Source of the DNA: Picochlorum sp. 'celeri'
Lineage: Eukaryota; Chlorophyta; Trebouxiophyceae
Reading direction: 5' to 3'
NCBI GenBank assembly: GCA_010909725.1
Contig: JAACMV010000011.1
Span: forward strand, 620,001-684,000
Length of the DNA: 64,000 nucleotides
The number at the start of each line of letters is the position of its first letter. Position 1 is the first letter of the stretch. The position numbers and the translations under genes were made by a program. The notes beneath the pieces are model-generated. The model searched no databases and had not been told where the DNA came from. It saw only the letters and a program-made list of their open reading frames with translations. This document shows, one piece after another, positions 1,450 through 55,745 of this stretch.

Positions 1450-1456
1450 GTTCGAG

Positions 1457-1551
1457 TACGAAGGGCATGCTCTAAGACCACTGAGCTACAGAAGCGTCAG
1501 GTAGAATGTTTTTCGTGCTTCTGGAGAGAATCGAACTCCCGACCCCACCCT
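1457..1551 (-). tRNA. Candidate circularly permuted tRNA-Thr gene (probable anticodon CGU)
   Basis: Read on the minus strand, the 3' half comes first (1551 down to 1516): anticodon-stem strand GGGTG, variable GGGTC, T-arm GGGAG-TTCGATT-CTCTC, acceptor CAGAAGC, discriminator A. A 20-nt intervening segment follows (1515-1496). Then comes the 5' half (1495-1457): acceptor GCTTCTG, TA, D-arm GCTC/GAGC with a GG-containing loop, A26, TGCCC, then TTCGTA. The acceptor strands pair perfectly over 7 bp, the D stem over 4 bp, and the T stem over 5 bp with one G-U. The anticodon stem has 5 bp including two G-U pairs. TAGCTCAGTGG is a consensus A box and GTTCGATTC a good B box. G1-C72, C2-G71 and anticodon CGU fit threonine identity. 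The exact splice point inside the anticodon loop is inferred. Permuted tRNAs are known from Cyanidioschyzon and some prasinophyte algae. Confidence 0.82.
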
Positions 1552-1574
1552 GTTCCGTACCCATCACTCTACCA

Positions 1575-1624
1575 GCTCACCCTGAAAGGCCCTATCGCGA
1601 TAGGAAAGGCCTTTGTGGGTGAGC
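1575..1624. repeat. 50-nt near-perfect inverted repeat (hairpin) beside the permuted tRNA
   Basis: The outer arms GCTCACCC (1575-1582) and GGGTGAGC (1617-1624) are exact complements. Inside them lie a second pair (AAAGGCC against GGCCTTT) and a central perfect palindrome, CCTATCGCGATAGG-like. Almost the whole 50 nt can fold into one interrupted hairpin with short mismatches. It starts about 12 nt upstream (minus strand) of the leader segment of the permuted tRNA. I do not recognise it as a known RNA family. Confidence 0.8.
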
Positions 1625-55300: not shown

Positions 55301-55745
55301 GTCGTATCGTGACCGATCAAGCCAAAGTTTTTGTTTCGTAAGATTTCGTTTTGCTTTGAGCTTATTCTCTGGATAGAGCCGCCGACGGCCTACAATGCGA
55401 GGATATTCTCGATCTGTATTAGAGTTCACAAATGAATTAATAATAAATAATTTATGTGCTCGGTAGGATACCATGAATCCGTTTCGAGATGATGTGATGG
55501 GAGCTTCACCTGGCCCATAAGAATCCTAGGCTCGAATGGAAAGAATTGAGGCCCAAATTGAAATCACACCCAGCTGCGTCTGCATCTTTGCGCTTGGGGC
55601 ATTAGTGTAGTCAATGAGGTCTTAACCGAGGACGCACTTATTGCTAGTTGAAAACAAATCCAATCCCCTCTTGCCTTAGCTGGTAAGAAATTTCTGGCAG
55701 GTCTATTGGACCATCCTCACATCTTTTCATCCTCGACTCGTCTTG
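55301..55745. other. Spacer with no recognised gene
   Basis: 445 nt between the MutS2 end and the hexokinase start on the same strand. A GGGCATTAGTGTAGTCAATG stretch near 55600 faintly recalls a tRNA D arm, but no acceptor or T-arm partners follow. Bases 55420-55460 are AT-rich. No hairpin of note. Confidence 0.45.

Follow-up and report, generated by a model that had tools for sequence, protein, structure and literature searches.

Can a tRNA gene whose 3' half precedes its 5' half supply tRNA-Thr(CGU) to Picochlorum sp. 'celeri'? The question is raised by a locus in a 64-kb stretch of DNA (64,000 nucleotides, hereafter the window), for which a preliminary description had proposed a circularly permuted tRNA-Thr gene. 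Read on the minus strand from 1562 to 1442, the locus consists of a leader, the tRNA 3' half, a 20-nt linker, the 5' half, a trailer and a run of eight T. The best supported reading is that of a type II (37/38) circularly permuted nuclear tRNA-Thr(CGU) gene, and we predict from its sequence, with high confidence, that this is a working gene.

All parts of the gene lie on the minus strand, and both halves were delimited by the sequence itself, a covariance model, ARAGORN and the predicted fold. The 3' half (1516-1551, nucleotides 38-73 of the tRNA) comprises A38 (1551), the 3' strand of the anticodon stem (1550-1546), the variable region (1545-1541), the T-arm with the B box (1540-1524), the 3' strand of the acceptor stem, CAGAAGC (1523-1517), and the discriminator A (1516), after which no CCA is encoded. 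The linker (1496-1515) is presumably removed at the acceptor ends. The 5' half (1457-1495, nucleotides 1-37) contains the 5' strand of the acceptor stem, GCTTCTG (1495-1489), T8 of the tRNA (1488), the D-arm with the A box (1486-1469), the 5' strand of the anticodon stem (1467-1463), the anticodon CGT (1460-1458) and A37 (1457). The two acceptor strands form seven pairs out of seven. The leader arm GGGTACG (1556-1562), recognised from the sequence and the fold, pairs with CGTACTC (1460-1454) over seven positions, one of them G-T; the last three bases of this strand, CTC (1456-1454), belong to the trailer (1442-1456) and complete the junction helix, and the T8 terminator occupies 1449-1442. The order of the halves, the 20 nt between them, the perfect 7-bp acceptor stem with its discriminator A, the intact A and B boxes, the T8 and the 7-bp pairing of leader and trailer had all been described beforehand and were confirmed base for base. 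The locus is flanked by two mechanically called open reading frames on the same strand, of 225 codons (554-1231) and 203 codons (1897-2508), and the GC content of the window is 45-49% in 4-kb steps. The sole Rfam match above threshold in the window is a U4 spliceosomal RNA (55584-55711, plus strand, 88.9 bits).

Read in genomic order, the locus does not yield a cloverleaf, as had been noted before: ARAGORN called no gene across the 64-kb window, Rfam gave no tRNA match in it at the gathering threshold, and the tRNA model RF00005 had no match between 1400 and 1700 up to E 10. Rejoined at 37/38, the halves are called by ARAGORN as tRNA-Thr with anticodon CGT and all stems intact, which bears out the proposed identity, and the resulting cloverleaf has U8, G18G19, U33 and TTC. 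We then asked how far chance could account for the arrangement. B-box-like words are generally frequent (one search gave 187 matches, versus 157 in the reversed control), so that tRNA-like fragments might fall together by accident. A finder that looks for T-arm, acceptor, linker, acceptor, D-arm and anticodon stem in this permuted order returned a single candidate in the real window, with a score of 22.5, whereas the best score in 200 dinucleotide shuffles was 18.0 and none reached 21. A second covariance model for the permuted order, trained without any Thr row, gave the locus 39.3 bits (E 6.6e-10) as its sole match up to E 10 in the 64 kb; the first, built from permuted class I tRNAs, gave 70.8 bits, a circular figure as its training set included the locus. 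Thus the finder separates the locus from shuffled sequence and the covariance model singles it out within the window, and an accidental arrangement has a negligible probability. The two covariance models also place the 37/38 boundary at the predicted join of 1457 to 1551. The unconstrained minimum-energy fold of 1575-1446 is the permuted cloverleaf together with the leader-trailer helix; the folding energy itself was rejected as evidence (z -0.47; 70 of 200 shuffles fold equally well).

The permuted order is also that of a non-coding RNA. YrlA is a bacterial Y RNA-like sRNA, and its tRNA-like module runs T-arm, acceptor, D-arm, so that the locus could in principle specify a tRNA mimic of this type. 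In a 301-base search the YrlA family (RF02553) was indeed the best Rfam match to the locus, aligning across the permuted order (31.1 bits, E 4.4e-5). This score is far under the gathering score of 69, and the anticodon loop and the isotype features that appear on rejoining, across 16 anticodons (see below), would be needless for a mimic. Our literature search found no paper connecting YrlA with permuted tRNA-like RNA. We therefore regard a mimic as highly improbable, and retain the reading as a tRNA gene.

The leader-trailer helix provides a further test, since its pairing is expected to bring the two ends of the anticodon loop together. Across the permuted genes of this genome, pairing of a leader is stronger with its own trailer than with the trailer of another gene (mean -4.9 versus -3.2 kcal/mol, p 0.002; p 0.003 and 0.008 at two other lengths). 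The Thr-CGT helix is the strongest of the 16 at all three lengths, and none of 30 non-cognate combinations surpassed it. Ala-TGC, Gly-GCC, Leu-TAA and Leu-AAG have no clear leader-trailer helix, and a strong helix is thus not a general rule in this genome. In Thr-CGT, the first four pairs (nucleotides 34-37 with 1559-1556) make up the standard helix length. The next three bases (1456-1454), expected to form the 5' bulge, are paired as well, and the strict bulge-helix-bulge is therefore replaced by a relaxed form in which the 5' cut site lies within a continuous helix, in agreement with the earlier description of a relaxed junction.

How might such a gene be transcribed? A putative extragenic promoter element, AAAAATTCGAATTTT, lies upstream on the minus strand (1643-1657), more distant from the Thr-CGT gene than its counterparts are from other permuted genes. 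Between this AAATTC element, at -105, and the tRNA gene intervenes a 46-nt hairpin (1577-1622, minus strand), whose arms TCACCC...GGGTGA enclose AAAGGCC...GGCCTTT, making Thr-CGT an outlier. The 90 nt upstream contain the motif [AG]AAATTC in 8 of 16 permuted and in 9 of 24 ordinary genes, versus 2.0% of 90-nt stretches drawn at random from the window. Within 120 nt the counts are 10 of 16 and 10 of 24, versus a background of 2.7%, with two permuted leaders and all ordinary leaders covered over less than 120 nt. Of the 16 permuted genes, 11 have one of the shorter words AAATT or AATTC 26-44 nt before nucleotide 39 (background in a span this wide, 4.7%), and 16 of the 24 ordinary genes have one 15-57 nt before nucleotide 1 (background, 10%). 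In these comparisons the motif and the spans were chosen post hoc, the background is that of the window, and the 24 ordinary loci include both Phe alleles. The leaders examined of Thr-TGT, Leu-AAG, Ser-AGA and Cys-GCA carry no AAATT or AATTC site. The similar spacing in both sets indicates that the spacing is tied to the beginning of the coding block, regardless of which half leads, and the presence of AAATTC upstream of permuted and ordinary genes alike suggests that transcription is independent of the order of the A and B boxes. A 1597-codon open frame matches the TFIIIC B-block domain (30.8 bits, cut-off 22), which is weak evidence, since 4 of 14 prokaryote controls also score above this cut-off.

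The transcription signals also bear on whether the halves might be separate transcripts joined in trans, as in a split tRNA, for which the same leader-trailer helix could serve. A run of at least four T follows all 16 5' halves within 60 nt (background 22.5%), while none of the 16 linkers contains one, and a 20-nt linker would seem to leave little room for a second promoter. A split gene is accordingly very unlikely, and the single permuted transcription unit remains the preferred reading.

We then considered the possibility of a dead gene, that is, a rearranged tRNA pseudogene whose letters persist by chance or youth and from which no tRNA is made. The genome assembly (27.41 Mb in 30 contigs, with the window in contig C11) carries tRNA loci mostly at matching places on contig pairs, as in a phased diploid, and the published phased assembly of Picochlorum celeri is described in its available text as 27.43 Mb in two phases of 15 scaffolds each, with 46% GC (PMC7225527). 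On contig C19 of the second haplotype lies the other allele, with both halves identical. The alleles are 99.27% alike over 3.3 kb, and with so little overall divergence the identity of the halves is on its own weak evidence against a dead gene. Counting against a working gene are the non-strict junction, the weak or absent leader-trailer helix of several other permuted genes, the AAATTC element at -105, the ordinary folding energy, and the 26 of 240 non-cognate joins that ARAGORN also calls. Against decay stand the perfect stems and the leader helix specific to Thr-CGT. ACG codons are in use (159 of 12484 codons across 21 long ORFs), and the searches turned up no second CGU gene. Allowing up to three mismatches, the opening 27 nt of the 5' half are confined genome-wide to the two alleles, and a similarity search with the 301-nt region recovered, besides these alleles, a single pair of relatives, which is the permuted tRNA-Thr(AGU). 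Among the 34 ordinary tRNA matches, the 29 read by ARAGORN include no Thr gene, and the other five lie at partner-haplotype positions; an ordinary tRNA-Thr(CGU) was not found in this non-exhaustive search, which scored 63 of the 866 first-look candidates. Permuted order is shared by the Thr-AGU and Thr-UGU genes that were found, and the alga must therefore have means to use such genes. Taken together, a dead gene appears improbable, if somewhat less so than a mimic or a split gene, and we continue to read the locus as a working permuted gene.

Permuted genes were found in the genome for at least 16 anticodons: Thr AGT, CGT and TGT; Ala AGC, CGC and TGC; Arg TCT, TCG and CCT; Leu AAG, CAG and TAA; Ser AGA and GCT; Cys GCA; and Gly GCC. 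Every Thr and Ala isoacceptor found is permuted. Ordinary genes were recognised for 23 anticodons, 13 of them intron-containing, and the permuted share is thus 16 of 39 identified anticodons. The census combined B-box patterns, D-arm patterns, fetched regions (60 + 8) and the finder; as it relied on exact B-box words and near-consensus D-arm words and covered 37/38 junctions, it gives a lower bound. Many pattern matches are chance, judging from the reversed controls: besides the B-box search given above (187 matches, of which the census used 100 places), two others gave 42 versus 24 and 31 versus 4, and the D-arm searches 19 versus 29, 41 versus 11 and 6 versus 0. Within this lower-bound census, neither form was found for Val AAC/CAC, Gly CCC, Pro TGG, Leu TAG, Tyr, iMet and Sec. 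Inspection by eye led to four corrected ARAGORN labels (Arg CCG, Arg ACG, Leu CAA, Ser TGA). Two calls were dropped: an implausible one at locus L142, and a 92-nt tRNA-Cys(aca) whose stems are broken and which borrows the T-arm of the permuted Gly-GCC gene (locus L037).

All 21 rejoined permuted sequences (the 16 and five alleles or copies) were called by ARAGORN with the matching isotype; among the non-cognate joins that it also called (26 of 240), 11 were within an isotype. Acceptor and anticodon stems pair at 12 of 12 positions in all 16 genes, a count that is partly selected as the finder requires at least six acceptor and four anticodon pairs. The 240 non-cognate combinations average 6.6 pairs of 12, and the six that reach 11 are within-isotype. 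Identity features of tRNAs include G3-U70 for Ala, T73 for Cys and long variable regions for Leu and Ser. After rejoining, G3-U70 is present in all three Ala tRNAs, T73 in Cys, and a long variable region in all five Leu and Ser tRNAs. In a model-fitted alignment of 10 permuted loci the anticodon helix is 100% paired, and all five of its pairs show changes on both sides. The acceptor and D-arm columns of this alignment appeared to be misaligned (paired cells, 52.9% and 28.9%; 64.7% overall after a slide of +2) and were discarded, and acceptor pairs were therefore counted directly. With covariance model R2 (100 of 162 loci), the class II permuted Leu and Ser genes scored 13.5-23.0 bits, inseparable from half-matches to ordinary tRNAs, which reach 26.1, and its span on Arg-TCG, only 80 nt, cannot include the real 5' half. 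The class II genes and Arg-TCG thus rest on the finder, the rejoined ARAGORN calls and the pair counts rather than on this model.

Some members of the set vary in copy or allele. The permuted Arg-TCG gene exists as two inverted copies on one contig (C8:59353 and C8:537665), 99.3% alike over 1273 nt. Its linker of 128 nt is longer than the 1-74 nt in the table of a review, as far as its text is available (PMC3978253), and contains several inverted repeats visible by eye. At the two Ala-CGC places (C10:935339 and C16:932354) the flanks are 99.7% alike and the gene region only 85%, with differing D-arms, and both versions rejoin into a good tRNA. The permuted Ala-AGC gene (C30:266290-266600) was recognised, through its exact B box, on one haplotype.

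The origin of the permuted order was approached through sequences around the halves. Duplication followed by loss of the outer halves predicts that leaders keep traces of the lost 5' half and trailers traces of the lost 3' half. In Thr-CGT, a D-arm-like stretch before the 3' half, AGCTGGTAGAG, was considered as a decayed 5' half left by a tandem duplication, a reading that the alignments do not support (p 0.63 against its own 5' half, 500 shuffles; p 0.06 against the best of the 16 halves, 200 shuffles); the bases immediately before it belong to a hairpin. Among the 16 genes, only the Thr-TGT leader reaches 0.03 against its own half, uncorrected. For the Ala-AGC leader none of 200 shuffles does as well, though this match is to the Thr-TGT half and not to its own. 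Trailers of the 16 genes gave no match to their own 3' half (smallest p 0.11). Leu-AAG and Leu-CAG are 86% alike over 132 nt including the linker, and at least one permuted gene was therefore probably derived from another permuted gene. Two ordinary genes, tRNA-Asn (C3/C23) and tRNA-Phe (C4/C30), carry a T-arm-like GGTCCCGGGTTCAAA directly before nucleotide 1. Exact copies of it are found at only four places genome-wide (two loci on two haplotypes), and either a 3'-half relic or a leader element common to both genes could explain it. A D-arm-like word of the TGGCCGAGCGGTTAAGAC type lies about 2 kb from many contig ends, with a T run within 50 nt downstream in both loci read (L157, L158), and possibly represents a subtelomeric, tRNA-derived pol III element.

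We propose that RNA polymerase III would transcribe the locus into a single linear precursor of tRNA-Thr(CGU), as published algal work leads one to expect, probably with an upstream element, and not A and B boxes in their usual order, directing the start. The splicing endonuclease would cut on the 5' side of A38 (1551) and on the 3' side of A37 (1457), a ligase would join these cut ends into an RNA circle, RNase P and tRNase Z would trim away the 20-nt linker at the acceptor stem, and CCA would be added last. The algal pathway outlined in the available text of the review runs likewise from a linear precursor through endonuclease cutting and ligation to a circle, then RNase P/tRNase Z and CCA addition (PMC3978253). 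Splicing-endonuclease domain matches were found at two distinct genes (C7/C24 and C10/C16). The second is also present, with the same score throughout, on C9, C12, C21, C25 and C26 (on C9, C12 and C26 at the same place, 1564-1779, near the contig start), which reflects either extra copies or repeated assembly.

With modest confidence, we incline to the view that tRNA gene order no longer matters in this alga: the Thr and Ala families would be made only by way of an RNA circle, and AAATTC-set transcription would tolerate permutation, with the TFIIIC B-block seemingly retained. If so, translation as a whole would depend on tRNA circularisation, and the set would be the largest reported that we know of. 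In such genomes much of the set escapes standard tRNA annotation, including every Thr and Ala gene found. The 2014 review, in the text available, calls the transcription, origin and persistence of permuted tRNA genes unclear (PMC3978253). Picochlorum is described in parts of two papers as a fast-growing alga, Cas9-edited by other groups (PMC12301381, PMC10808502), and at least 16 permuted anticodons beside ordinary and intron-containing genes offer many internal replicates in an editable alga.

Comparison with known systems sets the locus in context. By 2014, 34 permuted tRNA genes were counted across all organisms, as far as the accessible text of the review goes (PMC3978253), from which the following comparisons with the red alga Cyanidioschyzon merolae are also drawn. 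Its type II tRNA-Thr(CGT) and tRNA-Thr(AGT) genes are the same isoacceptors with the same 37/38 junction and the 3' half first, and they likewise encode no CCA and have a T-rich end. Their linkers measure 31 and 24 nt, versus 20 and 14-15 nt in Picochlorum, the place of the junction varies (types I-IV), and C. merolae has 11 permuted genes versus 16 anticodons here. Homologues of TFC1 and TFC3 are reported missing in C. merolae, whereas Picochlorum has the weak TFIIIC B-block match. Within the green lineage, the genes of Ostreococcus, Micromonas and chlorarachniophyte nucleomorphs have mostly 37/38 junctions, like those of Picochlorum (PMC3978253, in part; PMC4494063); the part of the review's table that covers them lists 2-6 genes per genome, mostly Ser, Cys, Leu and iMet, and no Thr or Ala (PMC3978253). 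The preliminary description had given the known range as Cyanidioschyzon, some prasinophytes and a few archaea, which stands and is too narrow, as the nucleomorphs (PMC4494063) and Auxenochlorella (PMC12636532, in part) belong to it as well. For Picochlorum we found no report of permuted tRNAs in a search that most subscription papers lie outside of; the SENEW3 genome paper took its tRNAs from tRNAscan-SE, and the word 'permuted' is absent from its main text. Searches on permuted tRNA in Trebouxiophyceae or Chlorella, and on such genes in general from 2015 onwards, returned, within the same kind of accessible literature, Auxenochlorella as the sole trebouxiophyte report. According to the available part of that report, Auxenochlorella UTEX 250-A resembles Picochlorum as a trebouxiophyte with a streamlined diploid genome and permuted tRNA genes, which were found because its tRNAscan-SE set was incomplete; it is another genus, and its permuted set may equal that of Picochlorum in size (PMC12636532). 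Permuted tRNA genes are an already known kind, for which Picochlorum seems to be a new genus and the scale of its set perhaps a new feature.
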